The position numbers and the translations under genes were made by a program. The notes below the pieces were generated by a model. That model saw only the letters and a list, made by a program, of their open reading frames with translations. It made no database searches and had not been told where the DNA came from. Of a stretch of DNA of 39,280 nt, positions 3,775-39,280 are shown piece after piece; the first letter of the stretch is position 1, and each line of letters begins with the position of its first letter. Source of the stretch: a virus; IMG/VR virus record IMGVR_UViG_3300010938_000015, positions 48,708-87,987 of that record. One strand, given 5' to 3'.

Positions 3775-4343
3775 TTTTCGGCCTCCACATTTAAACTAAT
3801 TAGAGTACCGTTTTTATCCATATGTGGTATATAAGCTTGTGCATAATCATCATAATTAGTATGATCTTTAAACACTTCATCAAATTTCCAGCGCTTTACA
3901 TTTTTAAAGCCAATATCCTTTAAAAGATCTTCTAACACTAGAAAATCATATGCAGCTTTGTGATAGATAAACCCATGTCCTTTAATTTCCCATCTTCCAA
4001 ATAAAATATCTGTGCCGTTTAATGGAAAAGTTTTCTTTGGATCGTTATTGCCTTTTCTTTTATTATCTATGTATATTGCAGCCATTGCCTCAAAGTCTGG
4101 AACAGCCAATCGTATTATACCGCCAGGTCTTATTACTCTATACCATTCTTTTAAAATATCAATTATTTCAACACGGTCAAAATAATCAATGACATGTGAC
4201 GCATATATCTCATCAACACTGTCTGTATTAATCATTGGTAATGTTCTTATATCATGCTTAAAATTTATATGTTGATACTCTGCTAAGTCAATATGAGTAT
4301 AGCCAGCAAGAAAACGTTTATTACATCCTAAATGTAATTTCAT
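3771..4343 (-). CDS. SAM-dependent methyltransferase (class I), second copy
   Basis: A 190-residue methyltransferase-fold protein starting directly with motif I (MKLHLGCNKRFLAGY), followed by THIDLAE, a DEIYASHVIDYF motif and the EWYRVIRPGGIIRLAVPDF strand seen in predicted SAM-dependent methyltransferases near polysaccharide genes. It is only distantly similar to the methyltransferase at 2279-2884, so it is probably not a recent duplicate. It overlaps the dehydratase stop by ATGA. Likely acts on the glycan or nucleotide sugar made by this cassette; the substrate cannot be told from sequence. Confidence 0.78.
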   Translation of the reverse strand: MKLHLGCNKRFLAGYTHIDLAEYQHINFKHDIRTLPMINTDSVDEIYASHVIDYFDRVEIIDILKEWYRVIRPGGIIRLAVPDFEAMAAIYIDNKRKGNNDPKKTFPLNGTDILFGRWEIKGHGFIYHKAAYDFLVLEDLLKDIGFKNVKRWKFDEVFKDHTNYDDYAQAYIPHMDKNGTLISLNVEAEK

Positions 4344-6370
4344 ACTTTTAAATTTCTACTTTCTTGCTCATAATCATAATCACACATTTCTTTAACTAGC
4401 ATATCAAATGTATATTCTGGCTTCCATCCTAGAAGTGTTCTTATCTTGGTAGAGTCACCCAACAATGCCGGAACTTCATTTGGACGTTTTAGATCGTCAT
4501 TTACTACTAAATATTTATAAAAGTCAAGATTAAAATATTTAAAAACCTTTTCAGCAAACGAACGCACGCTATGGTACTCACCAGTCGATACTACCCAATC
4601 TTCAGGTGTATGATGCTCCATTATCATTATCATAGCGCGAGTATAATCTTTACTATGCCCCCAATCACGTAGAGCATCAAGATTACCTAATTCAATTTTA
4701 TCTTGCAATCCTAAAGCAATTCTAGCAGCTGAACGAGTTACTTTTTTGGTAACGAAATTCTTCCCACGTCTTGGAGAATTATGTATTCTAACTAAACCAG
4801 TTCCAGCAGTAAATTTACCAGATTCAGTTTCTAAATCAAAAACCCATTCATCTTCGCCGTCTTTTTCTATTATTTTTATAACGTCATTTTGTGTCTTTTT
4901 CAAATTCATACCAATATGACCAATATGACCAATATGACCATCAATATCTAAGTTTCGTTGCGAATTTATAAAACCTTTATAAATATGATCATGCTTACCA
5001 TATACATTATATGTTACATCAACGCCTGAAACGTTATTTATACAATATCTTAAACCAAGAGCTAAGACTGGCGAATCAGTTGTATAATACTGAAATTTAT
5101 TAGGTAATGATTTTGTACCATCTCCTTCACAATAACCATCTAAGAAAGCTTCCATATTCTCTATACTAGAATTTAAAATGATTTTTGGTACTTTTTTATA
5201 CTTATTCTGATTATGAGTTCCTTTTGTATATAGATTATTTCCCATCCATAATACCATTTCTGGGCACCCATTTAATGTTATATTGTGAATATTCTCACCA
5301 GCATACCCAGATATTTGTATTCCATGTGTAACATATCCACCAGATACTTTGTGCCAAAGTTCGGCCACTTTATTAATAAGATCAATATCCTTATTAATAA
5401 ATTTGGCCTTTTTGCCTATGACGCTACCATCAGCACTCATAGCTCCAAGCAACCATGCCATTTCTTTAGTACAAACTGTGTTAGAATTACTATATGGAAG
5501 TGAAGATAATTCTAATTTCGACCCTATATTTAAATCAGAGCATTTAATTTCGCCACCATTTTCATCTAACCAAATATGGTCAGCTGTTGTTTCAACTACT
5601 CCAGCTCTGCATACTATTTTCCGTATCTTACGGTTTTTATTTTTAGTGGCTGTTGCACACAACACTTTTACAAATTTGTCTTTATCCCATACTTCAAGGT
5701 TATTAACTAAACTAGTTTGCTTAATTTGCCCTTTTGTTTTATGTAAAACTAACTCACCAACTGGTTTAATATCAATCAACCCATCTTCTCTAATAATTAA
5801 AGGCATTTGATAAGTTAAACATTCATGATTAAAAAGTATTCCATTTGCTGCAAACATTCCATAGCTATCTCTATATGTTCTAGTAGCCCAATATGAAAAT
5901 AATTTTGCACACCCATATGGACTTGCTGGATGGAAGTAAGAGTTTTCATTCTGTGGTGGTAATGTTTTACCAAACATTTCAGAGCTTGAAGCTTGGTAAA
6001 ATTTAATACGTTTACTTAGGGCTAATTCTGCTTGTCTGACTGTTTCTAATAAATTAATCACACCAACAGCATTAATTTTAGCGGTAGAAACTGGTTCTTT
6101 AAATGACACAGCAACATGCGATTGTGCGGCTAGATTAAAAATTATATCTGGTTTAATATGATAAATCAAACCGTCTAATCCACCAGTTAAATCGCCATAA
6201 TGCAATTTACCCCTGCTATCGGCAGGAAAAATATGGTCAATCCTCTCTGTTGTTATTACACTAGATCTGCGCAAAACACCATGAACTTCATACCCCATAT
6301 TCATAAGATGTTCAGATAAGTAACTTCCATCCTGGCCAGTCACACCAAGAACCATAGCTATTTTATTCAT
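4340..6370 (-). CDS. gmd: GDP-mannose 4,6-dehydratase precursor with an intein
   Basis: Converts GDP-D-mannose to GDP-4-keto-6-deoxy-D-mannose, the branch point for GDP-fucose, rhamnose and perosamine. The 676-residue precursor is two extein parts (residues 1-183 and 532-676; 328 residues after splicing, close to the usual size) around a 348-residue intein. Visible features: NAD-binding GVTGQDGSYLSE, the catalytic SSSEMFG, YGCAK (Tyr-x3-Lys) and, split by the intein, NHE|SPRRG. All key residues are present, so the spliced enzyme should work. No strong ribosome site is seen; the gene starts a leftward operon in a 36-bp divergent region shared with the vWA gene. Confidence 0.95.
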   Translation of the reverse strand: MNKIAMVLGVTGQDGSYLSEHLMNMGYEVHGVLRRSSVITTERIDHIFPADSRGKLHYGDLTGGLDGLIYHIKPDIIFNLAAQSHVAVSFKEPVSTAKINAVGVINLLETVRQAELALSKRIKFYQASSSEMFGKTLPPQNENSYFHPASPYGCAKLFSYWATRTYRDSYGMFAANGILFNHECLTYQMPLIIREDGLIDIKPVGELVLHKTKGQIKQTSLVNNLEVWDKDKFVKVLCATATKNKNRKIRKIVCRAGVVETTADHIWLDENGGEIKCSDLNIGSKLELSSLPYSNSNTVCTKEMAWLLGAMSADGSVIGKKAKFINKDIDLINKVAELWHKVSGGYVTHGIQISGYAGENIHNITLNGCPEMVLWMGNNLYTKGTHNQNKYKKVPKIILNSSIENMEAFLDGYCEGDGTKSLPNKFQYYTTDSPVLALGLRYCINNVSGVDVTYNVYGKHDHIYKGFINSQRNLDIDGHIGHIGHIGMNLKKTQNDVIKIIEKDGEDEWVFDLETESGKFTAGTGLVRIHNSPRRGKNFVTKKVTRSAARIALGLQDKIELGNLDALRDWGHSKDYTRAMIMIMEHHTPEDWVVSTGEYHSVRSFAEKVFKYFNLDFYKYLVVNDDLKRPNEVPALLGDSTKIRTLLGWKPEYTFDMLVKEMCDYDYEQESRNLKV
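4778..5821 (-). mobile_element. Intein with LAGLIDADG (DOD) homing endonuclease, in gmd
   Basis: A 348-residue in-frame insertion interrupts the conserved NHE-SPRRG motif of the dehydratase. It begins with Cys (block A, CLTYQMPLIIRE), has the block B TADH near precursor residue 262, and ends with block F/G (EWVFDLETESGKF, then LVRIHN) before Ser+1, so splicing residues Cys1, His-Asn and Ser+1 are intact. Two dodecapeptide motifs, LLGAMSADG (about 307) and FLDGYCEGDG (about 409), keep both acidic residues, so the endonuclease may be active. A 9-bp triple repeat (HIG x3, DNA 4910-4936) lies in the C-terminal part. Confidence 0.94.
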
Positions 6371-7561: not shown

Positions 7562-9511
7562 TTATTGTTCATTTTGTATGCAGCTTTGATTAACTTGCTT
7601 CTGCATATCTTCAAGTTGCTTATTTAACTTTTTAATTTCATTTTCTAGTTTAGAAATTTTCTCTTGATCATATGGTGCAGAAGCGTACTTACTACTCCAC
7701 TCACCTATTCCATCAACAATTTCACATTTTAAATCGCCCAATAATCCAGGAAATTTAGAGACTAATGTTTTAGCAACTTGATCAAACACTAACCTAATTT
7801 CTTCTTCTGCATGTCTGCTAGTGCGAATCTGAATTAAATGTCTTGCAGCCCTCATATTCATAGTCCAAATTATTGCTGTTGATAACCCTATTGGAGCTAT
7901 GCGTCTAAATGCTGAAGTTAATTTCTTTTTGGTAGAAAAGTCCTTCATTTGTTCAATACCATAAATTTCTGCTAATTGCTTCTGCTTCTCTTCTAGTAAT
8001 TTAACTGTTTCAATTACTGTTTCAACTCCCTTTCCGTCTTTATCATAGGTTTTTAGTACTTCTGGAATCCAGAAGCCTAACTTGGTCAGTCTAACATATC
8101 TCAATGATTCCTGAGACATAGCCGTACCAGCTCTGTGGCGCACCAACTCATGGGTATTTCCAGACCAAAAAGCTACTCCAGAATTTCTAACATATATTAA
8201 ACCATCATCTGTTTCAGGACAAAACACAAAGCCATCATAATTCATAATTTTTTGATGGTGTTTTTTAACCAACATAGATCTATCTGAATGAATTTCTAAG
8301 ATATAATACTTATTTTTATGTATAAGTTTTTGGCCATTTACCATATGGAATTGACCAATTCTATCCTTTTCAATTCTAACATTTGACGACTTGCCAAGTA
8401 CTGCTATAATAGATTGCAAGTCTGTAGCTATGTGTTTATTGCCACCACAATATATAGTTGTATGATCAAAATTACTATTATTTCTACTAGTTCCGTCTCC
8501 AAGAACCATACCATCAATAAATGATTTTAATAAATGTTTTGGCTTGTCAAGTAGTTTATACAATGTACGATCTTTATTTGTTCTACCAATAGTGTTAATT
8601 ACCCACAACTTCAACTCTTTATCAGAAATACAAAATTTACCAGCATACTCTTTCCATCTATTAGCAAATAATTCATCCATTAATATTCTAATCTCATCCA
8701 AATTTTTAATCTTTGTTTTAACTATAGAGCATCTATTTCTAGTTTTTAATATGTATCCATTAGAGGTCATTAAACCAAGCCATTTAAACAGTAAAGTAGA
8801 ATTATATGTATAATTGCCTATATTAATAAACGCTGGTGAGTCTAAATTATGCTCCATACGAATGCCACTATCTATAACAAATCGTTTATTATAAATATCT
8901 TCCATGCGAATTTTAGATGCATTATTTATGATATCATCGCATTTAGTGTTTCTAGATTTTCTCAAATCATATTTAGCGCACCACATAATATGATCAGGCG
9001 TTACCGCTGGCGATTTTATTTGACTATTCTCAAAATAATATAAGGGGCCACAATATCTAAAGGAATGTAATTTCTTATTTGTAGACCACCTACATTCACC
9101 ATTTTTTGGATTTTTTGTTAATATGATTTCATTGTTGTCCAATTTAGTTATATTTTTCCAACCCATATTCGTGAGAACTTCGGTTTCGGGATGGTAGCAA
9201 AAGACTCTACTAACATTCCAAAATGCAAATGTTACAGATCCGTGTTCTATTACAGATCCATGCCCTACTTTGTTAATATTATCCAAATATTCAAGACTGT
9301 TATCTCTTACTTTAGTAACATTAGGATTCAAGCCGACTTGGAACGACTTATAACACGCCTTTCCAGCGACCATTACTAAGTTTTCTATATCTGAAATTTC
9401 TGGATCTAATTCATATTCAGTAGCGCCAATTTCAGTTAGATATTTCTTAATTCCAGCTTCTTCAAGTTTAGTCTCAGCTATCAACTCTACACTAGGCGTT
9501 GTGAATTCCAT
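7562..9511 (-). CDS. thyX: Flavin-dependent thymidylate synthase precursor with an intein
   Basis: Makes dTMP from dUMP using FAD, NADPH and methylenetetrahydrofolate. The start is taken as ATG at 9511 because GGGAG lies just upstream; an earlier in-frame ATG at 9544 sits inside a hairpin and lacks such a site. The 649-residue precursor loses a 348-residue intein to leave about 301 residues. The ThyX signature reads RHRAGTAMSQESLRY, one residue longer than the textbook RHR-x7-S spacing. Other family motifs (HGSVIEH, AARHLIQIRTS) are present. The last 40 residues form a likely coiled coil (ISKLENEIKKLNKQLEDM). A phage with its own ThyX can boost dTMP supply. Confidence 0.95.
   Translation of the reverse strand: MEFTTPSVELIAETKLEEAGIKKYLTEIGATEYELDPEISDIENLVMVAGKACYKSFQVGLNPNVTKVRDNSLEYLDNINKVGHGSVIEHGSVTFAFWNVSRVFCYHPETEVLTNMGWKNITKLDNNEIILTKNPKNGECRWSTNKKLHSFRYCGPLYYFENSQIKSPAVTPDHIMWCAKYDLRKSRNTKCDDIINNASKIRMEDIYNKRFVIDSGIRMEHNLDSPAFINIGNYTYNSTLLFKWLGLMTSNGYILKTRNRCSIVKTKIKNLDEIRILMDELFANRWKEYAGKFCISDKELKLWVINTIGRTNKDRTLYKLLDKPKHLLKSFIDGMVLGDGTSRNNSNFDHTTIYCGGNKHIATDLQSIIAVLGKSSNVRIEKDRIGQFHMVNGQKLIHKNKYYILEIHSDRSMLVKKHHQKIMNYDGFVFCPETDDGLIYVRNSGVAFWSGNTHELVRHRAGTAMSQESLRYVRLTKLGFWIPEVLKTYDKDGKGVETVIETVKLLEEKQKQLAEIYGIEQMKDFSTKKKLTSAFRRIAPIGLSTAIIWTMNMRAARHLIQIRTSRHAEEEIRLVFDQVAKTLVSKFPGLLGDLKCEIVDGIGEWSSKYASAPYDQEKISKLENEIKKLNKQLEDMQKQVNQSCIQNEQ
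8156..9199 (-). mobile_element. Intein with a probably impaired LAGLIDADG endonuclease, in thyX
   Basis: A 348-residue insertion splits the ThyX motif between SRVF and THELVRHR, right before the active-site signature. Cys1 starts block A (CYHPETEVLTNMGW); block B has TPDH (about precursor residue 171); the end reads VAFWSGN before Thr+1, so the penultimate residue is Gly rather than His, a known variant. The first dodecapeptide motif reads LGLMTSNGYI, with Asn at the catalytic acid position, while the second (FIDGMVLGDG) is intact, so the homing nuclease is probably inactive although splicing may persist. Confidence 0.93.
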
Positions 9512-9521
9512 GTTTTCTCCC

Positions 9522-9529
9522 GATTTATA
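9522..9529 (-). promoter_or_regulatory. T4-late-like TATAAAT box upstream of thyX
   Basis: On the minus strand TATAAATC lies just before the GGGAG ribosome site of thyX. The T4 late promoter is TATAAATA at -10. Spacing is short but compatible with a transcript starting at the ribosome site. Confidence 0.35.
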
Positions 9530-9530
9530 A

Positions 9531-9569
9531 ATACTAATAATCAAGCCACTAGGATTTGATTATTAGTAT
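9531..9569. repeat. Perfect 14-bp inverted repeat in the thyX leader
   Basis: Arms 9531-9544 and 9556-9569 are perfectly complementary (ATACTAATAATCAA and its complement) with an 11-base loop. It is AT-rich and ends just before the TATAAAT box of thyX. It may be an operator, a terminator for upstream transcription, or a leader hairpin. Confidence 0.85.
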
Positions 9570-13254: not shown

Positions 13255-13747
13255 TTATGACTGCTAATATCTTTTTTAAACTTGATTTGGTGTCTTCTTT
13301 AGTATTTGTATTCAATACTACCACTTTGTAATTTTCACGCAATAGTTTAATTACCTCATATAATTTATGCTTATATTCAGCAATTTTAGAATTAGATAAT
13401 ACTAACTTTCTATTGATATTTCTAGCTTTACAAATTTCAGAGTCTGTATTCATAGCCGCAATTATAACCTTATGTCCCAATTTAATGCTGCTGTTAGCTA
13501 ACTCTATCATAACATCTTTATTAGAACCACATGTATCTAATATAATAGTCGAATCGATATTATAAATTTCTTCCTTAAATTGCTCAATACAAGTATCCCA
13601 AGCTGCCATTTTAGTTGCATTATCGGCTGTAGAACTATATAGTAATTCTGGCTGTAATACTACTAAGTCTACTTTAGACAATTTTACTAAATAATTAACT
13701 AAAGTAGACTTACCAGATCCAGGAATACCGGCAAATAATATAACCAT
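13247..13747 (-). CDS. P-loop kinase/NTPase (AAA_33 or polynucleotide-kinase-like)
   Basis: A 166-residue protein starting with a Walker A loop (MVILFAGIPGSGKST, Gly-x4-GKST at residues 7-15). A strand ending STIILDTCGSNKD (about 91) resembles the Asp-bearing motif of small kinases, and AARNINRKL-like Arg residues (KARNINRKL) could form the lid. This layout matches AAA_33 / T4 Pnkp-like kinase domains that phosphorylate nucleic acid ends or small molecules. No phosphatase domain is attached. It overlaps the glycosyltransferase gene, so the substrate could equally be a sugar or a nucleic acid. Confidence 0.7.
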   Translation of the reverse strand: MVILFAGIPGSGKSTLVNYLVKLSKVDLVVLQPELLYSSTADNATKMAAWDTCIEQFKEEIYNIDSTIILDTCGSNKDVMIELANSSIKLGHKVIIAAMNTDSEICKARNINRKLVLSNSKIAEYKHKLYEVIKLLRENYKVVVLNTNTKEDTKSSLKKILAVING

Positions 13748-13752
13748 TATAA

Positions 13753-14223
13753 TTAAAATATTTGATGCTGCTCTCTATATAAAAGAGCACTGATAAGATT
13801 TTCTAAAAATTCAACCACTACTAATTTTTCATCATCATTTAAGTTAAATATTAATTTAACACCAAACCACCATGAATCTCTATCTATTTCATAAATTCTA
13901 TCAAGAAATTTCTTAATAATTAAAAAATTTTTAATATCTTTCCCTGTTAAATATACTAGGCAATCTTCAATAGATTCTTCTATTTTAGAATTTCTAAACT
14001 TAACAACATCATTCCATATAGCATCATCGTCGCTACTAAACTCTTCATAACCGTATGAACATATCGATGCAGGTAAAGCCTTTAAATTACTAGCTAAGAT
14101 CATCAAACCTTCAGTATCAATAATTGAAGGAGTTTTACCCTTTATTATCCACCTAATATCGTCCAATATTCTAACAACATTATGCGGAATTGCATTATCA
14201 TTTAGACGGTGGCAATTTATCAT
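13753..14223 (-). CDS. Protein of unknown function
   Basis: A 156-residue acidic, mostly helical protein. Visible segments: HNVVRILDDIRWIIKGK near the N-terminus, SYGYEEFSSDDDAIWNDV in the middle and a hydrophobic C-terminal helix (EKLVVVEFLENLISALLY). No catalytic motif or metal site is recognised. The ATG overlaps the stop of the preceding gene, so it belongs to the same operon; the kinase gene follows five bases later. Confidence 0.6.
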   Translation of the reverse strand: MINCHRLNDNAIPHNVVRILDDIRWIIKGKTPSIIDTEGLMILASNLKALPASICSYGYEEFSSDDDAIWNDVVKFRNSKIEESIEDCLVYLTGKDIKNFLIIKKFLDRIYEIDRDSWWFGVKLIFNLNDDEKLVVVEFLENLISALLYREQHQIF

Positions 14224-27957: not shown

Positions 27958-30528
27958 TTATTCTTCCGTTGTTGTAGAAACTTCCTCTATTATATTTTTA
28001 TCACCATTTTCACTGTTACTACTATTACTTTCTACTTCATCGTTTTCTAGATCGATGTATAAGTCTTCTTTATCATGATTATAAAATTTATCATAATCTG
28101 TTTTCTTGACAAGTCCAACTACTTGTTTGCCTCTTTTGCATGAGAAGCTTCTGAACTTATCACTCCAAGTTACTTCCACTCTTATACCAACACCATCATT
28201 AAATAATTTAGCATCCGACGAAGTTATCTGTTCACCAAATATCAAAAGTTTAACTTCTTCTAAGCCATCAGTAACAGTCAATCTTAGATAATCATTACCC
28301 TTGGCACTCTTAGCGATTTCTATGTCTTTAATAACACATTCCAAAATACCAGATTCTTTTGCATCTTCTATATTATGTTTAACATTCACATACAAATCCA
28401 TCGGTGAATGCCAATAAAAGCCATAAAAATTCTTCTCAATTAAAAGAATATCAGTTAATGAATAATCATTTTTAAATAACTTTTCAAAATGTTCTAAAGT
28501 ATATTCTAATTTCTTTGGCTTCCAATTGTTTATTCTATGTGGTACATTTTTATTTTTATCTTTTTGATTACTCTTCCAGTCAGCAGCCATCTTTTTACGT
28601 TCTTCTATAATTCTATTCTGATTCCAACCAAATTCATCATCTAATTTAGCTATTATTTTCTTACGTAAGTTATCATCGCTGTTGTCTGTATACTTATAAA
28701 TATAATAATACCACAATGCTCTTCTATTCTTATGGAAATTGCAAAATGCTCCAAGTTTAATCAACCTGGCCATAGAAGTTTTATTAACTAATAATTTATC
28801 ACCATTAGAATGCAATTTCATAAATTCATCTAAACTAGATAAAGATGTTCTACCATAGCTAGACAATTGTACTGAAGCTTTAGGCCCAATTCCCTTCATA
28901 ATACTCAAGCCAGGTAATATTTCTTCATGTTTTGCATGGAAGTCAGTCTGAAGATTATTAAAATCTATAGTACCAAATTTAATACCTTCAATTCTTGCCA
29001 AACCAATATACTTAGCTCTCTTTTCTGGCTTAGTATGGGAGAGTACCGAAGCCCACCATTCAGTAGGAAAGTATGCCTTTAAGAATAAGCATCTCCAACT
29101 AATAACCGAGTATGCTGCAGCGTGTGATAGATTAAAGGCATAACGTCCAAATTTTGTCATCTTTTCCCACCACTCTTTTGCAAATTCAACAGAGGAGTGT
29201 TTAGCTAAACCATTAATAATCTTAGGTTCTAATTTTAAAAGTTCATCTGCCTTCTTCTTAGCGACAGCTTTTCTGGCTTTTTCTGATTCAGGAACAGTTA
29301 AACCACACATTGTAGTCCAAATATTAGATAACTGTTCTTGGAAAATAATAACACCATGAGTTGGCTCTAATATTTTTACCATCTTTTCAGGTAGATTATT
29401 TTTCCACTTCTTTTTTGGATCATCTCTATTTTCTACATATGATGGAATCTGTTCCATAGGCCCAGGACGACCAAGCGAAGTAGCAGCGACAATATCCCAA
29501 TAACTCTTAATACCAACTTCTTTCAGAATATTCATTGCGAAGTCTGTTTCAAATTGGAATACCGTTTCTACTCTTTGTGTATTACATAACTTTAATATCT
29601 CCTCATCATCCATCATTATGTTATGCCAAGTTTCTTCACCTATTTTCCTCCAGCGACCCAAGACTCTTTCCAATGGCAACATATATTGCCAATCTATCTC
29701 AATATTTCTATTCTCCTTAACATATTGAGATGCTACAGTAATATCCCACATCGTATTTAGACCAAGAAGATCAAATTTAACAAATCCAAATTTAGACAAT
29801 TGCTGATTGAATCCCTCAGTCCATGATGATACGTGTTGCTTTAATTTATGATCATATGTTAAAGGTACATGCTTACCTATTGGTTCAGATGAAATAATTA
29901 AACCACCAGCGTGTCTACCCTGCGTCTTAATTCTACCAACCATTCTATACGCGATATCACATATTGACGGAAATTTATTTGCAAATTCCTTAAAAGCTGG
30001 AAATTCAAATTTTGCCTTTTCAAGATCATCAATATCATCAAATTCTTTTGGTATTGATTCTAATAACTCTTCTAAATAATGACCGAATTGGCTGTCAGTC
30101 ATCTTTTCATCTTGTGATCCTAATGCTCTGACAGCATCCTTTAATGCTAGTCTTGGTTTATAAGTTAACCAAGAGCCAACATTACAAACTTTATCAGCAC
30201 CATACTTCTGAGTTATATATTCTTTAATTGGCTCTCTGGCATTTGGAAGGAAATCAATGTCGATATCTGGGAAGTCAGGTTGATAACTAATATTATGTTT
30301 AATATTAGCAGCAATCGGGTCAACACTACATATTCCCATCAAGTAGGCTATTACTAAACCATTCTTATTAACATCAAATTTTTTACCTGATTCTAGTAAG
30401 TCAATCCAATATTCATTAGAACCCTGTTTCTCGATTTCTTTTATCTCAAATTCTAATCGCTTAATATACTCAAGCCCAAGTGAATTTGCCTTTACTATTA
30501 ATTCTGATTTTATTGTATCCCAATCCAT
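27958..30528 (-). CDS. dnaE: DNA polymerase III alpha, catalytic C-terminal part
   Basis: An 856-residue DnaE-type polymerase lacking the PHP domain. It begins with about 85 residues that echo the palm entry (GLVIAYLMGICSVDPIAA), then PDIDIDF (87-93, catalytic Asp88 and Asp90) and KFDLLGLN (Asp253). Later come TVFQFETDF, GRPGPM, GVIIFQEQL and GRYAFNLSHAAAYSVIS of palm and fingers, a helix-hairpin-helix around KGIGPKA, and an OB domain (about 730-800). No tau-binding tail is seen. The PHP part is a separate gene at 31307-32923; the two products must assemble to give a whole alpha subunit. Confidence 0.93.
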   Translation of the reverse strand: MDWDTIKSELIVKANSLGLEYIKRLEFEIKEIEKQGSNEYWIDLLESGKKFDVNKNGLVIAYLMGICSVDPIAANIKHNISYQPDFPDIDIDFLPNAREPIKEYITQKYGADKVCNVGSWLTYKPRLALKDAVRALGSQDEKMTDSQFGHYLEELLESIPKEFDDIDDLEKAKFEFPAFKEFANKFPSICDIAYRMVGRIKTQGRHAGGLIISSEPIGKHVPLTYDHKLKQHVSSWTEGFNQQLSKFGFVKFDLLGLNTMWDITVASQYVKENRNIEIDWQYMLPLERVLGRWRKIGEETWHNIMMDDEEILKLCNTQRVETVFQFETDFAMNILKEVGIKSYWDIVAATSLGRPGPMEQIPSYVENRDDPKKKWKNNLPEKMVKILEPTHGVIIFQEQLSNIWTTMCGLTVPESEKARKAVAKKKADELLKLEPKIINGLAKHSSVEFAKEWWEKMTKFGRYAFNLSHAAAYSVISWRCLFLKAYFPTEWWASVLSHTKPEKRAKYIGLARIEGIKFGTIDFNNLQTDFHAKHEEILPGLSIMKGIGPKASVQLSSYGRTSLSSLDEFMKLHSNGDKLLVNKTSMARLIKLGAFCNFHKNRRALWYYYIYKYTDNSDDNLRKKIIAKLDDEFGWNQNRIIEERKKMAADWKSNQKDKNKNVPHRINNWKPKKLEYTLEHFEKLFKNDYSLTDILLIEKNFYGFYWHSPMDLYVNVKHNIEDAKESGILECVIKDIEIAKSAKGNDYLRLTVTDGLEEVKLLIFGEQITSSDAKLFNDGVGIRVEVTWSDKFRSFSCKRGKQVVGLVKKTDYDKFYNHDKEDLYIDLENDEVESNSSNSENGDKNIIEEVSTTTEE

Positions 30529-30529
30529 A

Positions 30530-30940
30530 TTAAATATTGCCTAATTTTTGCACAGCAATCTGTAATGCAGATTTAAAATTACTCAATTCGTATTTTGGAA
30601 ATTTTTTTAAAGTAAGCTTAAATTTAGAGTCAAGAATAAGATTACGTAACTTTTCAACTAAATATTTAGCACTTTGCGGTTTCTTAATCCAAGATTCATC
30701 TTCAATTTGAAGCATATCAAGTACGAAATCACTAGTATACAATTCTATATCAATATTTTTATTACTAAAAGGAAGTAATGCAAAATAGCAATTCATTAGT
30801 TCAAGTTGGTTAACAGGATACTTACCACACTTAATTACATGAATGTATTTATCATTAACTCTAAATAGCAAAACAGATAAACCTTCAGAATTAATCATTA
30901 AAGACGAATTAGAGCTAGCGTAAGTAATTATTTTAATCAT
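30530..30940 (-). CDS. RNase HI-like protein with degenerate active site
   Basis: A 136-residue protein whose pattern follows RNase HI: a first strand MIKIITYASSNSSLMI (RNase H: I-Y-T-D-G-S), then NQLELMNCYFALL (T-N-N-x-M-E-L), and DIELYTSDFVLDML (L-Y-T-D-S-x-Y-V). The Glu is kept, but the first Asp position is Ala and the second is Ser, so it is probably not a nuclease. It lies between the two polymerase halves and overlaps the next gene by eight bases. It could be a structural or nucleic-acid-binding subunit; fold assignment is by eye. Confidence 0.5.
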   Translation of the reverse strand: MIKIITYASSNSSLMINSEGLSVLLFRVNDKYIHVIKCGKYPVNQLELMNCYFALLPFSNKNIDIELYTSDFVLDMLQIEDESWIKKPQSAKYLVEKLRNLILDSKFKLTLKKFPKYELSNFKSALQIAVQKLGNI

Positions 30941-31304
30941 TTAATTCTGGTAATGGCTTTATATCATTAGCAAGATTCAAATGTGCTAGCAAGGTATTCA
31001 AAGTTTTAATTGCTGAATTTTTAGCCTTAACACTCGCACTCTTCTTTTTCTGTTTTAAAATTTCCTGTTCAACCAGTTCTTTAAATTTTTTATCTACAAC
31101 CTTATCAAGTAGCAAGTCACATAAATCAATTATGCATTTCATCATAAGATTTTCTAAATCTTTTATTAGTTGTTTCCTATTTCTAGACATAGCAGAATTT
31201 ATAATATCAGGTATCTTCAAATAATTAGGAAGACCACCAATAACAGAATAAATAGCAAGAGAATGATACGCCTGCCTAGTAAGTTCTTCAAGACCTTTAT
31301 CCAT
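30933..31304 (-). CDS. Helical protein of unknown function between the polymerase halves
   Basis: A 123-residue, almost entirely helical protein: LEELTRQAYHSLAIYSVIGG, then RKQLIKDLENLMMKCIIDL and a basic segment KQKKKSASVKAKNSAIKTL. GGGGTAATT precedes the ATG, two bases after the PHP gene's stop. It and the RNase H-like gene occupy the exact gap of the split polymerase, so a role in bridging the halves is worth considering. No family recognised. Confidence 0.58.
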   Translation of the reverse strand: MDKGLEELTRQAYHSLAIYSVIGGLPNYLKIPDIINSAMSRNRKQLIKDLENLMMKCIIDLCDLLLDKVVDKKFKELVEQEILKQKKKSASVKAKNSAIKTLNTLLAHLNLANDIKPLPELND

Positions 31305-31306
31305 AA

Positions 31307-32923
31307 TTACCCCATTGTAGTATTTAACATAAATCCACCTCTACTAGGAGACAAGAATCTGTCAAAGCTTAAATCCCATTGTAAAGGGTCCATTTCATGA
31401 ATACCAAGTAGATAGCAAACCAGTGAACCACCAGCAGAACCGCGCGCTGGGCCAGTCGGACTTCCATACTCACGAGTTTTGTTGCATAAGTCAGCAGTTA
31501 TTAAAAAGTAGCTGCTGAACTTTTTCTCTATAAACCTTTGTAATTCTAATTTCATTCTAGAAACATATTCTGGTTTATCTGCAAGACCCTTCTCCTTAAG
31601 GCCACGCAATGTTAATTTTACTAATTCTCTATCCGCATCACCAACATCAGGTAATTTAGGATCTAGATTTGGTTTAAACTGCTCGCATTTAGATGCAACA
31701 TCTAAAGTATTGTCACAATAACATTCAAATTCATTAATCGAGGCATACTCATTATATTTATTCTCTATAAATTGCTTCCTAAATTGTGATCTTGTTTTAA
31801 AAAATTGTTCATTTGAATTAACATGGAACAAAGTTGGATCATCAACTTTTTTATCTTGGTCAACAGCCATCATCACCATCTGAATATTATAATCTTCACG
31901 AGATAAGTAATGGCAATCACCTGATAATACCGTCTTAATTTTCATATGCCTACTTATATCAGAGATCATTTTAAATGCTTTACGGCCATTCGGTACTGAT
32001 TCTCCAGGCATTTGAATTTCTAAGTAAAAATCATCACCAAAATCTTCTCTAAATTGTTTTATCCATTCTAACGCAACCACTTTAGGTTGAGCATAAAGTT
32101 TATCATTTAATTTAGTACCAGCTTCAAGTCTCTTACGAATAGTACTAGATACAGGTACAGAAATTGCTTCTTCTCTCAATTCATGGCATACAGGACCATT
32201 TAAGCAGCCAGATAATACAATCAAGCCTTCTTTATGTTCTCTCAATAAATCATACCACACGCGTGGCTTATAATAAAATCCTTTTTCCCAAGCTGTATTT
32301 TGTATAGCTATTAAATTTTGATAACCAATCTGGTTCTTGGCAAGTACTGTTAAATGCCTATTTCTTCTGAATCTTGATTCTAATTCTGGTGCCTCAGCCC
32401 TCAACGAGCCAAGCTTTGAATGATTTCTCAGAATTGGTATTCTACATTCAGAATTTTTACCATCAAGCGCTAATGATTGCCATTCTTTAAATTCAGGTTC
32501 AAAATCGCATAAATATATTTCACATCCAGCAATCATCTTAATATTGTTCTTTCTAGCGGCAAAGTAAGCATCTGGAATAGCTGCAACGCTACCATGGTCA
32601 GTTATAGCAAAAGCCGGTTGATTGCATTCCTTGCAGCCAGCCATGTATTCTTCTGGTTTAGCAACACCATCTAAAGCACTATAGATAGTGTGATTATGAA
32701 GATGTACAAATTGCTGCTCACCTGGGTAATTTTTAGCAGCATCCATTCTTTCTTTTTCTGTAGAAGAAAGAATATGTTCAACTTGACCACATGTTGAACA
32801 ATTATGACTAAATTTATCACCAGCATTCAAATTAGCCGCAGATTCAACAATCTGATCCGGTAAATTACTTATTTTACCGCATCCAGAGCAAGTGCAACCC
32901 AATTTATGATTATACATATCCAT
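31307..32923 (-). CDS. dnaE: DNA polymerase III alpha, PHP and N-terminal palm part
   Basis: A 538-residue protein. An extra N-terminal zinc motif (Cys10, 12, 15 and 42, 45) precedes the PHP domain. PHP metal residues look intact: VHLHNHTIYS (His74, His76), ITDHGS, GCEIYL, the His of LTVLAKNQ (His before it), LSGCLN and SGDCHYL, so proofreading or pyrophosphatase activity is plausible. It ends with the palm entry GPARGSAGGSLVCYLLG, then FDRFLSPSRGG and a stop eight residues later, just where PDIDIDF is expected; that motif is in the other gene. Starts a leftward operon. Confidence 0.92.
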   Translation of the reverse strand: MDMYNHKLGCTCSGCGKISNLPDQIVESAANLNAGDKFSHNCSTCGQVEHILSSTEKERMDAAKNYPGEQQFVHLHNHTIYSALDGVAKPEEYMAGCKECNQPAFAITDHGSVAAIPDAYFAARKNNIKMIAGCEIYLCDFEPEFKEWQSLALDGKNSECRIPILRNHSKLGSLRAEAPELESRFRRNRHLTVLAKNQIGYQNLIAIQNTAWEKGFYYKPRVWYDLLREHKEGLIVLSGCLNGPVCHELREEAISVPVSSTIRKRLEAGTKLNDKLYAQPKVVALEWIKQFREDFGDDFYLEIQMPGESVPNGRKAFKMISDISRHMKIKTVLSGDCHYLSREDYNIQMVMMAVDQDKKVDDPTLFHVNSNEQFFKTRSQFRKQFIENKYNEYASINEFECYCDNTLDVASKCEQFKPNLDPKLPDVGDADRELVKLTLRGLKEKGLADKPEYVSRMKLELQRFIEKKFSSYFLITADLCNKTREYGSPTGPARGSAGGSLVCYLLGIHEMDPLQWDLSFDRFLSPSRGGFMLNTTMG

Positions 32924-34330: not shown

Positions 34331-35356
34331 TTATAATCGCCTGTCGCCTCGCCTACGCTCAGGTCCAGAATATTGTTGTGAATTCTTGCGTCTATCTTCT
34401 TTACGTCTATCTAAAATAGCCTTAACTCTATCAGATTCTGTACCAGGCTTTTCAAATTGCGGTGCTGTCTGCTCATAGGATCTTTTCTTAGTAGCAGAAG
34501 ATCTTCTATATCCAGCTAATAACCTGCCTATTAACCCTGGCTTAGGACTAAATTTATTCGCTACAATTTTAATATAATCAGAATAGCTATCTACTTTATC
34601 ATCTGGTACATCATCAAGTGCCTTCACCATCGCTTCTAATGCTGCTGGCGATAATTTTGGTCCACCCTTTTTCATATAATGTTTAGCCATACTTAATGCT
34701 CTTTCAGCATCATCTTCACCAACACCAATACCAGCCGTAATACCAGTTTCTAATTTTCCGTATTTTTCTTCTGGAAATTTATTAGCCAATAATCTAGGGA
34801 AGTTCACACTAGCATTGTCTAAATCATTTAATGCCATTATTATATTACGCAATTTGAAGTCTCTAAAAATAATAAAAAATTCATCACCACCGTGATGAAT
34901 AAGTTCAGCATTATTTTTAGAAGCTATATTATCCAATAAACCAGCTGCTATTTTAATTGCTTCATCAGCCCTATCATGGCCTAATTTATGATTTAAAATT
35001 TTAAAATCATCTAAATCTACAACAGCCCATAATTTATCATCACCACCGGATGGTTTTAATTTAGGTAATCCAGTCACATCATGAGTAGATGCAAGACCTC
35101 TCAATTGACCCCATAATTCTTTTAACTCCTTCTTAGCATTATCATCTTGTAATTTACCTAATAATACTTGAAATAACCCCTGTAATTCATTCAATACACT
35201 AGTCACATCTCTCTTACTCTCAATAAGATAACGGAAAGTATAAATAAGTCCATGCTCATCATTGAATATTGGCTCACAACCAAGATTAACAATAATCTTC
35301 TCACAAATATCTTCCTTCAAAATAAACAAGTTATCCAACTTTTCATTAAATTTCAT
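34331..35356 (-). CDS. GGDEF-domain protein, putative diguanylate cyclase
   Basis: A 341-residue protein. A helical N-terminal region (1-90) with no recognised sensor precedes a GGDEF domain (about 91-245): HDVTGLPKL, metal/substrate strand VVDLDDFKILNHKLGHD (Asp114), the signature HHGGDEFFIIF (156-160) and GITAGIGVGEDDAERALSMA. The catalytic residues for making cyclic di-GMP are present. No inhibitory RxxD site is seen before the signature. The C-terminus (about 290-341) is Arg-rich with PERRRGDRR. Cyclases are rare in phages; it could alter host motility or biofilm state. No transmembrane segment. Confidence 0.88.
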   Translation of the reverse strand: MKFNEKLDNLFILKEDICEKIIVNLGCEPIFNDEHGLIYTFRYLIESKRDVTSVLNELQGLFQVLLGKLQDDNAKKELKELWGQLRGLASTHDVTGLPKLKPSGGDDKLWAVVDLDDFKILNHKLGHDRADEAIKIAAGLLDNIASKNNAELIHHGGDEFFIIFRDFKLRNIIMALNDLDNASVNFPRLLANKFPEEKYGKLETGITAGIGVGEDDAERALSMAKHYMKKGGPKLSPAALEAMVKALDDVPDDKVDSYSDYIKIVANKFSPKPGLIGRLLAGYRRSSATKKRSYEQTAPQFEKPGTESDRVKAILDRRKEDRRKNSQQYSGPERRRGDRRL

Positions 35357-35555: not shown

Positions 35556-35590
35556 AATATAAATTTGCATGGTATATATTTATATTATGA
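35552..35590. promoter_or_regulatory. Mirror-symmetric divergent start region with 13-bp inverted repeat
   Basis: Arms 35552-35564 and 35578-35590 are perfect complements (TCATAATATAAAT and its complement). Each arm ends in the ATG of one divergent gene, so both genes begin with the same context TTATATTATGAAA. Each also has TATAAAT about 20 bases upstream of its ATG. This indicates a shared, symmetric control site, and supports the starts at 35555 and 35587. Confidence 0.7.
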
Positions 35591-37200
35591 AAAACAGATA
35601 CCATGAAATAAAAATAACATCATTAATATATGCAGCAGCAGCACATTTAGCAATATTAATATTATTAATGAGTGTACAAAAAGACTATTTTATAAGAGTA
35701 TCACAAATATTTGAAGAAAATCACAACATAGCTTACAACACCATAAAAGCAGAAACATCGTACGAAGCTGGTAGTAGCGAAGCTGGCACTTCATCACAAA
35801 TGCCAGAAATACAAAACGATCTAATGACAGATTTACCAGTAATACCAGCACCACAATCAGAACCAACAATACCACCACCAAAAGAAATACCAATAACAGA
35901 CGACGAATCTGAACCATCACCAGAAATAAAAGAGGTAAAAGAAGAAATTGCACCACCAGTAAAACAACGCTCAATGAATCTACCAAAATTTAAAGGAAAA
36001 GCCAAGGACGCAGCAACAGATTCAACAAATAAAGAAACAGAATTACCAGGTCAAAATGGTATAAGAGAAAAAGGAAGAAAAGGAGTAGGATTAGAAGAAG
36101 CAGGAGGCGATCAAGCAACCGAGGAAGCAGTAGAAGAGGGACTACAATGGCTAGCATCAGTACAAGATGACGACGGAAAATGGGATTCAGATGGATTTAT
36201 GAATCATTACCTACCTAACGATATTACAGATAACGATAGATATAAAGAAGGTGCCGGAGGAACATATTCAGATATAGGTATAACAGGATTATGCTTACTA
36301 GCATTCACTGGTGTAGGAAATACACACGAAAGTGGCAAATATTCAGGCAATGTTGCATTAGCAAAGCGATTTTTATTATCAGAGCAAAGAATTGAAGGTG
36401 GATTTGGAAAAACAGTAGGTTGGTCAGCAACCATGTATGATCATACAATAGCAATGCTAGCATTAGCAGACTTATACTTCATAAGCAAAGATCCAGAATT
36501 AAGAAAACCACTAGAAAAAGCATTACAATATTTATTAGCCATGAGAAATATATCAGGCGGATGGGACTACACACAATATTGGAATAAAAAACCAGAAGGT
36601 GACAGAGGAGATTTATCAATATCATGTTGGGCAATTATGGCAATATCATCATGCAGAGCCTCTGGGATTAATGTATCAAACGAATTATTAAAAGAATTAA
36701 AAACTTTTTTAATAAATTACACAGACAATAATACAGGAGAAGGAATATATTCAAAGAAAAGTCCAAGAGCCTTCGATAGAGGATTATCAATGGTAGCAGC
36801 TTCAAGCTTCTCAAGAAAATTATTAGGTGAAAAATCAACAAGTAGTACACAAAAGAAACAGTACAACAAAATGATCCAAGAAAAACCAACAGAAAAGGGA
36901 ATGAATAGTTTATCAGGAATATGGTATCTATACTACGGTTCGTTATCCATGTTTATGGATAAATCAGAATACGAAGAAGAATGGAAAAAATGGAACAATT
37001 CATGTAAAAATGTAATAATGAAATACAGATGCAAAGACGGAGTAAGAAAAGGCAGTTTTAATCCAGTTGATGCATTTAGTATACATGGTGGCCGTTTATG
37101 TTCAACAGCTATGTCAATATTATGTTTGCAAGTTTATTACAGATTAACACCAGCATATATAGAAAAAGCCAAAGAATTATCATATTTATGGGATGATTAA
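35587..37200 (+). CDS. Membrane-anchored alpha/alpha-toroid (prenyltransferase/squalene oxidase repeat) protein
   Basis: About 537 residues from ATG at 35587. Residues about 12-29 form a single transmembrane anchor (SLIYAAAAHLAILILLM) with a central His at position 20, as in TonB. A long Pro/Glu/Ser-rich linker follows, then from about 177 to the end an alpha/alpha toroid: EEGLQWLASVQDDDGKWD, GITGLCLLAFTGVG, MYDHTIAMLALADLY, ISGGWDY. These repeats are those of planctomycete-type prenyltransferase/squalene-oxidase-repeat proteins; no cyclase DxDD or zinc ligands for a prenyltransferase are evident, so it is probably a binding scaffold facing the periplasm. Ligand unknown. Confidence 0.85.
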   Translation: MKNRYHEIKITSLIYAAAAHLAILILLMSVQKDYFIRVSQIFEENHNIAYNTIKAETSYEAGSSEAGTSSQMPEIQNDLMTDLPVIPAPQSEPTIPPPKEIPITDDESEPSPEIKEVKEEIAPPVKQRSMNLPKFKGKAKDAATDSTNKETELPGQNGIREKGRKGVGLEEAGGDQATEEAVEEGLQWLASVQDDDGKWDSDGFMNHYLPNDITDNDRYKEGAGGTYSDIGITGLCLLAFTGVGNTHESGKYSGNVALAKRFLLSEQRIEGGFGKTVGWSATMYDHTIAMLALADLYFISKDPELRKPLEKALQYLLAMRNISGGWDYTQYWNKKPEGDRGDLSISCWAIMAISSCRASGINVSNELLKELKTFLINYTDNNTGEGIYSKKSPRAFDRGLSMVAASSFSRKLLGEKSTSSTQKKQYNKMIQEKPTEKGMNSLSGIWYLYYGSLSMFMDKSEYEEEWKKWNNSCKNVIMKYRCKDGVRKGSFNPVDAFSIHGGRLCSTAMSILCLQVYYRLTPAYIEKAKELSYLWDD

Positions 37201-38489
37201 GTTGGCCACTTATCTTCTGAATCCTCAAAATTACCATCTTCTGAATCCTCAAAATTACCATCTTCTGGAAATTTATTATGGCCTATAGCCTGATTTAATA
37301 ATTCAGATGCGTGTCCAGGATCATCAATAACAGCGTCAATAATTTTATGAACTTGTTTGGGCTTTAACTCACCAAATGCCATCATTAATTCAGAAATATT
37401 AGAACCCTTTGGTATAATCTTTAAAAATCTACGCCATAATTCAGGACCAACTTGTATAAGCCATGGTTCATCAGTCAAGACATCAGCATGAGATTGCAAT
37501 TTTTCCTGAACTTTCGGATCTAATTTAGCATAACCATGCATCATTAATAATTCCATTACACCTTTTGACAATTCTTGAATCAAAACCGGAAACACTATAC
37601 CCCTAGCAACCACAGTAGCAGTAGAATCTTCCACATCCATAGTAACATCATCTTCAACATTTTCAAAATCTTTATCTTTCTCATTAGTATCCGCCTCAGC
37701 AGCAGGCCAATCAATATATTCTTCACCAACCTTATACCCAGCTAAATCGATCATTTTAGAAAAATCAATCAACCAGTAATTTTTAACAGAACTCTTAGCA
37801 AGTGATGTGTATAATTTCAACAAATTCTTATCAATAGCATCTAACTCCTTATTAATTAAATAATGGGCAGAAGCCATTTGATGGATACTAGCACCATGTG
37901 TCAATGCATTAGTAGTAATGCGTTTATTAATTTCATCGCGTATGTCCTGATCAACATCGCCATCTTTTTCTAAAGTTGCTAAATCAGACTCGCCATCAGA
38001 CTTATCATTTTTAGGTGCCTCCAACTTACCATCGAGCATATTCTCATCAATACCCCAAATCTGCGATATAACTTTCTTAGCTAAAGCCTCTAATTCGGAT
38101 TTATGTTTACTCTCAACTCTCAATATCTTATGAAAAATAGCCCGCATTTCACGAATATCGCCATCAGAAACATGCTCATACGCAGATTTAGATAATTTAT
38201 CACCATGCATCGCTAAAACAGGATGTTTTGAAAAATGATGTTTAGACAACTCCGGATTCTTAATATTAGACCAAAATGCTAAGACAGAAGGATCTACCTC
38301 ATCCTCATATGCTTCAGTTAATTCATCCTTAGATTTAGCCTTTGGTTTAGGTACAACAGCTGGTTTAGGTGGTTTGAATGGGCTTGGCCTAGAAGGTTTA
38401 GTTGTTGGTTTAGTAGGAGCTATAGGAGCTTCTTTTGTAGTCGAAAATTCATTTAAAAGTAGACGTAATTTTGTATAGAAGTCGGCCAT
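37197..38489 (-). CDS. Large protein of unknown function, possibly virion-associated
   Basis: A 430-residue protein. After a helical start (MADFYTKLRLLLNEF) there is a Pro/Lys/Thr-rich linker (19-55). The core has FSKHPVLAMHGDKL, a helical part around ILRVESKHKSELEALAKKVI, VARGIVFPVLIQELSKGVME and LIQVGPELWRRFLKIIPKG. I have an impression of similar uncharacterised proteins in T4-like phages, but no family name. The C-terminus is a repeated acidic EDGNFEDS. AAGGAATAAT precedes the ATG. A tail-to-tail overlap of four bases joins it to the toroid gene. Confidence 0.7.
   Translation of the reverse strand: MADFYTKLRLLLNEFSTTKEAPIAPTKPTTKPSRPSPFKPPKPAVVPKPKAKSKDELTEAYEDEVDPSVLAFWSNIKNPELSKHHFSKHPVLAMHGDKLSKSAYEHVSDGDIREMRAIFHKILRVESKHKSELEALAKKVISQIWGIDENMLDGKLEAPKNDKSDGESDLATLEKDGDVDQDIRDEINKRITTNALTHGASIHQMASAHYLINKELDAIDKNLLKLYTSLAKSSVKNYWLIDFSKMIDLAGYKVGEEYIDWPAAEADTNEKDKDFENVEDDVTMDVEDSTATVVARGIVFPVLIQELSKGVMELLMMHGYAKLDPKVQEKLQSHADVLTDEPWLIQVGPELWRRFLKIIPKGSNISELMMAFGELKPKQVHKIIDAVIDDPGHASELLNQAIGHNKFPEDGNFEDSEDGNFEDSEDKWPT
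37213..37260. repeat. 24-bp tandem repeat at a gene's 3' end
   Basis: Two exact 24-bp copies (37213-37236, 37237-37260) and the start of a third encode the repeated acidic EDGNFEDS tail of the 430-residue protein. The unit is a multiple of three, so the frame is kept. Confidence 0.93.
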
Positions 38490-38497
38490 ATTATTCC

Positions 38498-38590
38498 TTA
38501 TTGTATAACAACTGAAAATTGATCTATCGAATTATCGGTATATGTTACTATACCACCAAAACTAAAAATAACAGCAGTTATATTCGCCAT
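38498..38590 (-). CDS. Possible 30-residue small protein
   Basis: ATG at 38590 opens a 30-codon frame (MANITAVIFSFGGIVTYT start) that stops just before the ribosome site of the 430-residue gene. It has no clear ribosome site and overlaps the end of the frameshifted gene upstream by 29 bases. It is beta-like and may be real through coupling, or chance. Confidence 0.3.
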   Translation of the reverse strand: MANITAVIFSFGGIVTYTDNSIDQFSVVIQ

Positions 38591-38787
38591 TATTTATATT
38601 TGTTACAATAATTTTTCTAAATGTAGTTCTAACATCACGAAGCATCATACGACTCAATAATTCAATTAGTAGATCAATATACATGCATTCAAGATTACTT
38701 TCCTTACCAGAGCATTTCTCTTTAATTCTATTATAATATTTAGATACTACTGTAATGTCGATAGTATCTAAATATAAGCCTTTTCAT
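38562..38787 (-). pseudogene. 74-residue gene interrupted by a one-base frameshift
   Basis: AAAAGGAG stands six bases before ATG 38787, but that frame stops after 15 codons. Removing one A from the run of four directly after the ATG (plus-strand T's 38781-38784) gives a continuous 74-residue protein: MKGLYLDTIDITVVSKYYNR start, then YIDLLIELLSRMMLRDV and FRKIIVTNINNG. The strong ribosome site and protein-like sequence argue for a real gene with either a homopolymer error, a true mutation, or translational slippage. No family recognised. Confidence 0.5.
38736..38775. repeat. Perfect 14-bp inverted repeat
   Basis: Arms 38736-38749 (ATATTTAGATACTA) and 38762-38775 pair perfectly around a 12-base loop. 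It lies inside the frameshifted 74-residue gene. A perfect TATAAT box on the plus strand (38732-38737) overlaps its left edge and points to the structured region on the right, so it might be an operator or transcript end. Confidence 0.8.
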
Positions 38788-38800
38788 TCACATCTCCTTT

Positions 38801-39280
38801 TAAGCTATCGACATGGCTGAAGGGTAAAGTTAGGCTAAAAAGAAACTAGTGGTGCGATGTCGGGTTGGAAAGGGTCTAGACGGCTTTTCCTACCAAATCA
38901 AATCAAATCAATTCTCCGTCTAACACTAAATCTAGGAGCGAGAGAGTGCCAGAGGGTAGTTCTTACACTGTCTAAACCCCTCATAGCGTCATAGACGCCC
39001 CATACTGAATAATTTACGTCTTCGGACGGTTTAAACGAGGTAGTGGTAACATTGCCTCGTCTGGAGGGTTGGTCCAATTCATACGACCAACTGTTTTACT
39101 CCAACAGGTGTGGCCTGCATAATCCTAGTCCCAATCATCATTTTGTAAAGCGATGCTCTTGGTGTTTTTTCTGGCACCTTTTGTTTCAGGTGGGAAAGGG
39201 AGACAGTGTATATTGAAAGGGAAACCATAACACCACACCTAAACAAATTGAAGGAACACCTACTAAACAGTCTAAAGGGC
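38801..39280 (+). ncRNA. Candidate large structured non-coding RNA, continues past the window
   Basis: The last 480 bases hold no convincing gene, have about 43-52% G+C against 20-33% nearby, and contain many helices on the plus strand. Examples: 38809-38814 with 38857-38862; 38877-38883 with 38916-38922; 38986-38990 with 38994-38998; CGTC-UUCG-GACG at 39017-39028; an 11-bp stem with GUAA loop at 39035-39060; a 7-bp stem at 39068-39091; 39175-39179 with 39188-39192; and 39106-39113 with 39233-39240, perfect over 8 bp at long range. UUCG and GNRA loops occur only when read on the plus strand. Phages carry large ornate RNAs (GOLLD, ROOL) in such places; class not assigned. Group I/II introns remain possible. 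Confidence 0.6.

Follow-up and report, generated by a model that had tools for sequence, protein, structure and literature searches.

A gene-free, G+C-rich block at the end of a phage contig as a candidate structured noncoding RNA

The window analyzed here (39,280 nucleotides; positions 48,708–87,987 of the 87,987-base virus record IMGVR_UViG_3300010938_000015) ends in a gene-free, G+C-rich block (38797–39280, plus strand; coordinates refer to the window unless a locus is named) that is a candidate structured noncoding RNA truncated where the contig stops. The record is partial and linear, has no end repeats, and shares its right end with the block. At the left end of the record, an open, low-complexity coding frame runs off the edge, so that the record cannot be closed there and the block does not simply continue on that side. 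Because the contig ends within the block, its far side is missing, and the 480 or more bases that an earlier note on this DNA had placed at the right edge are a lower bound on its size. The block has a G+C content of 0.44 compared with 0.325 over the 87,987-bp record, a value equalled in only 0.6% of the record's 480-bp windows, in agreement with the earlier description of a block richer in G+C than its AT-rich surroundings. As its gene content (two-part DNA polymerase III alpha, DnaB, RecA, ThyX, and inteins) and relatives of 320–640 kb show, the record is one piece of the genome of a large and probably huge phage. A second G+C-rich island in the record lies to the left of the window (L002:13540–13975; 52% over 480 bp), encloses a minus-strand frame of 87 aa (13561–13824) with no Pfam or PHROG match, and has the appearance of foreign DNA or of a chimeric join.

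Several other genes of the record were also noted. An intein carrying a LAGLIDADG endonuclease interrupts the GDP-mannose dehydratase gene (4340–6370), and ThyX was matched in two separated stretches (7562–9544), a pattern suggestive of a further intein. DNA polymerase III alpha is divided between two genes that have partly overlapping profile matches and are separated by two small genes (27958–32923), and the same order of gene sizes is found in the relative L005. A GGDEF-domain (diguanylate cyclase-like) protein (34331–35356) and a protein resembling squalene-hopene cyclase or pectate lyase (35569–37200) are unusual phage cargo, and a phage-encoded DnaJ-domain protein is present at L002:12547–13425.

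Two minus-strand genes lie to the left of the block. One encodes a 430-aa protein (37197–38489) that is conserved in huge phages and served as the synteny reference for related loci; the other is a probable small gene of ~75 aa (38562–38786) with the best coding score of the six frames, preceded by a Shine-Dalgarno sequence (AAGGAG, 38793–38798) and an ATG. Directly after this ATG, an A run (AAAA) contains a one-base frameshift, beyond which the best coding score is reached, and which may represent a sequence error, a pseudogene, or frameshifting. In related huge phages, a gene of 76–104 aa lies directly upstream of the counterpart of the 430-aa protein gene, and no sequence similarity between it and the small gene was shown. 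The small gene is AT-rich and marks the left limit of the block, and the G+C step falls at its Shine-Dalgarno sequence; the start of the gene-free block is thus better placed at ~38797, at this natural gene boundary upstream of the small gene. A 10-bp perfect inverted repeat on the minus strand (38755–38764/38805–38814) encloses the Shine-Dalgarno sequence and start codon, and a 14-bp hairpin (38736–38775) overlaps and competes with it. Local folding around the inverted repeat (38755–38814) gave z-scores of −4.65 on the plus strand and −3.71 on the minus strand. Together, the overlapping hairpin and inverted repeat (38736–38814) resemble a two-state translational switch around the start of the small gene.

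The block codes for no protein gene, as the earlier note had also read it. Its longest stop-to-stop frame is 67 aa, eight frames taken from the block and the adjacent flank had no meaningful match in Pfam or PHROG, and the phage codon-use score is negative in all six frames of the block, compared with +0.3 to +0.4 for true genes.

Folding strength, measured as excess over dinucleotide-preserving shuffles, is concentrated in one part of the block. Over its whole length, z-scores were −1.92 (plus) and −1.76 (minus), with 4 and 6 of 100 shuffles, respectively, folding as well, and the left part (38797–38960) showed no folding excess (z = −0.5). The only significantly structured part is a multibranched core of 255 nt (38960–39214), with a minimum free energy on the plus strand of −87.9 compared with a shuffle mean of −63.7 (z = −4.83; 1 of 150 shuffles as low), an excess that is somewhat inflated since the borders were picked after the fold had been seen. 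This excess amounts to 24 kcal/mol, compared with a maximum of ~19 kcal/mol among the 690 same-length grid windows of the record. The other strongly folded windows of the record that we inspected, one a terminator hairpin and one an AT-rich palindrome, were unremarkable. The core also folds strongly on the minus strand (z = −4.2), and the fold is likewise strong with DNA parameters (z = −3.9). Thus, the folding of a 255-nt domain is far stronger than that of shuffled sequence, and the earlier statement that the block is full of helices holds for this domain and not for 38797–38960 or for the block as a whole.

In the predicted plus-strand fold, the core is a five-hairpin domain closed by an interrupted, long-range rod of 24 bp. 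The 5′ arm of the rod (38964–38973, 38978–38981, 38999–39003, and 39005–39009) pairs, in this order, with the segments of the 3′ arm (39201–39210, 39197–39200, 39190–39194, and 39185–39189) at mean pair probabilities of 0.7–0.96. This rod was absent from the earlier note, and its 10-bp perfect repeat, taken alone, is present in 9% of shuffles. A 5-bp hairpin (GCGTC-ATA-GACGC, 38986–38998; pair probability 0.98) branches from the rod. Within the domain, the C(UUCG)G hairpin (39017–39028; ~0.8) and the 11-bp hairpin with a GUAA (GNRA) tetraloop (39035–39060; mean 0.99) were found where they had been described earlier; two G-U pairs of the latter stem form on the plus strand only. They are followed by a two-part hairpin (39062–39066/39099–39103 and 39067–39074/39085–39092; 0.91 and 0.99), a weaker hairpin (39105–39117; 0.56–0.60), and a 6-bp hairpin (39161–39178; 0.96) followed by TTTTGTTT, a weak terminator-like match. 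A possible outer closing helix (38849–38854/39231–39236) has a pair probability of ~0.9 and no significance of its own. The 8-bp long-range pairing (39106–39113/39233–39240) that the earlier note had singled out is present, and one of its arms is overlapped by the weaker hairpin; as a signal it is at chance level, given that the block contains three perfect 8-bp pairs and 20% of shuffles have as many. If formed, it would make a pseudoknot with the better-supported rod.

The tetraloops and the base composition bear on the strand. Among the shuffles, 0.5% contain a C(UUCG)G hairpin with a stem of 4 bp or more and 2% a GNRA hairpin with a stem of 7 bp or more, and the combination of both on the plus strand only occurred in none of 1000 shuffles; the minus strand of the block has neither a C(UUCG)G nor a long GNRA hairpin. 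On the plus strand of the block, G exceeds C and A exceeds T, opposite to the flanking minus-coded genes, and nearly all genes of the record are on the minus strand. A promoter and terminator scan revealed no convincing plus-strand promoter and only chance-level terminator matches, and the record yielded no shared promoter motif. The plus-strand reading of the earlier note is supported in part by the tetraloops and the local folding excess and weakened by a minus strand that folds nearly as well. Weighing the tetraloops and skew against the minus-strand folding, the minus-strand genes, and the inverted repeat, we consider the plus strand more likely, although the matter is not settled.

Comparison with known RNA classes yielded no assignment. 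At gathering thresholds, Rfam searches of the whole record were empty; up to E 10 in 38500–39280, they gave one meaningless match and no family. Membership of GOLLD (RF02032) and ROOL (RF03087) was defined as a family-model match of at least 150 and 99.1 bits, respectively. A search for GOLLD at E 10 was negative across the record up to the contig end, with first-look candidates scored, and ROOL was not matched up to E 10 in 38500–39280; the ROOL search of the record was also empty, in a run in which no control genome gave a signal either. The catalytic core of group I introns (RF00028, P3–P7) was not matched at E 10 in the record with working controls, although it could lie beyond the edge, and no TnpB-like protein (PF07282) was found in the record up to the contig end, again with controls giving their signal. 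Neither tRNA nor tmRNA genes were detected in the partial 87,987-bp record (ARAGORN and Rfam). By comparison, a related 395-kb phage carries a tmRNA and two tRNA genes (L005:3685–4846) ~6 kb upstream of its polymerase. Thus, the Rfam check recommended by the earlier note (GOLLD, ROOL, introns, and tmRNA) matched no family on the available sequence, and the likeness to GOLLD and ROOL drawn there is not supported, either by a family match or by tRNA neighbours.

As a matter of kind only, the block may be likened to three large RNAs. GOLLD, a large phage noncoding RNA with long-range pairing and many hairpins, is similar to the block in these respects, but it is often found near tRNA islands (PMC12286853), whereas the block has no tRNA neighbours. 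ROOL is likewise a large, phage-encoded RNA predicted to be elaborate, and the block has neither a ROOL match nor a tRNA island. OLE, an ornate noncoding RNA of ~600 nt, differs in being bacterial, occurring in extremophilic and anaerobic Gram-positives (PMC9723947), whereas the block is from a phage and has no Rfam match. All three form RNA-only oligomers, and the function of GOLLD and ROOL is still open (PMC12286853).

Homologues of the block were not found in the collections searched. A blastn comparison with phages and plasmids returned short matches only (best E 0.1–0.2), exact patterns from the block and the contig end had no match in IMG/VR, and the block translated through as a pseudo-protein matched nothing in IMG/VR or bacterial genomes; the searches of bacterial genomes, plasmids, and phages were coarse. 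A covariance model built from the single sequence recovered its own site at E 1e-72 and nothing else of note. Using the polymerase and the 430-aa neighbour, we collected 20 records of related large or huge phages; the 430-aa protein led nowhere as a single query and recovered 11 related loci as a profile. Neither BLAST nor the single-sequence covariance model of the core detected a counterpart in these 20 records. Weak matches in LR756502 (E 0.01–0.08) sit inside long open frames and were taken as chance. Beside the relatives of the 430-aa protein in huge phages, genes or short gaps occupy the position of the block, showing that the neighbour gene is conserved whereas the block is not. Close relatives may exist, as records very near the window's own genome possibly fall outside the searched set.

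Two alternatives retain the block as a functional element in another form. It could act as DNA through its inverted repeats, serving as a divergent promoter region, a replication origin, or a packaging site. Its location between genes, where a long array of minus-coded genes ends, and its strong fold with DNA parameters are consistent with such a site, but neither iterons nor clustered repeats resembling protein sites were found, there is no promoter excess, and UUCG and GNRA loops are RNA-type features; we regard a DNA-level role as unlikely. Similarly unlikely is a functional minus strand, in which the block would be the long, structured 5′ leader of the operon containing the small gene and the 430-aa gene and would control its translation or expression. 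Like the structured 5′ leaders of phage operons, the block immediately precedes a minus-strand operon whose first ribosome-binding site is enclosed by an inverted repeat, and this repeat, with its competing 14-bp hairpin, ties the block (38805–38814) to the small gene (38755–38764). The orientation of nearly all genes and the minus-strand folding of the core also favour a leader. Unlike in operon leaders, however, the plus-specific features are mostly at a distance of >200 nt and belong to the opposite strand: both tetraloops are confined to the plus strand, the 11-bp stem loses two G-U pairs on the minus strand, and the base skew favours the plus strand.

Two further alternatives were considered. 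The last 480 bases could be a chimeric contig end or a recent foreign insertion, as might be suggested by the sharp G+C step at the contig end, the absence of the block from related phages, and the other foreign-looking G+C island in the record. This explanation is improbable given that the G+C step coincides with a gene boundary, that the inverted repeat spans the step, and that bacterial genomes, plasmids, and phages gave no match, albeit in coarse searches. A member of a known RNA class, truncated at the contig end (a self-splicing intron, GOLLD or ROOL, or a TnpB/IscB guide RNA) would fit a phage with LAGLIDADG-type intein insertions, given that large phages carry such elements; the empty Rfam results for the block, together with the lack of group I, GOLLD, or TnpB-like matches in the record, make it very improbable.

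Our leading explanation, to which we give about an even chance, is that the block is a plus-strand structured noncoding RNA, specific to this lineage of phages and truncated where the contig stops. It draws on the lack of any ORF or domain, the negative codon scores, the folding excess of the core, the UUCG and GNRA loops on the plus strand only, the skew, and the G+C step at a gene boundary. Against it stand the lack of homologues in the collections searched, the weak excess of the whole block, the minus-strand folding of the core, the lack of a convincing promoter or terminator, and the absence of the block beside the neighbour gene in huge phages. Transcription would start near 38800 and run rightward, away from the minus-strand operon; the RNA would close the rod (38964–39009/39185–39210) around a multi-hairpin junction with UUCG and GNRA loops, and the folded molecule would act in trans during infection, alone or with a protein. 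Action in trans is a guess, the alternative being that the RNA forms the leader of an unseen gene to the right. A bolder proposal, that the block represents a new class of self-folded, trans-acting phage noncoding RNA of large size (400 nt or more), restricted to one lineage of large phages, with an interrupted 24-bp rod around a UUCG/GNRA hairpin junction and possibly a pseudoknot, is doubtful and offered tentatively.

Without homologues the block cannot be called a class and is a single-sequence candidate; it is a fair lead that the earlier note over-described, and its present value is that of a well-located lead in one sequence. Large phages have been little explored for ornate RNAs, and a new lineage-specific RNA would add another architecture for comparison.
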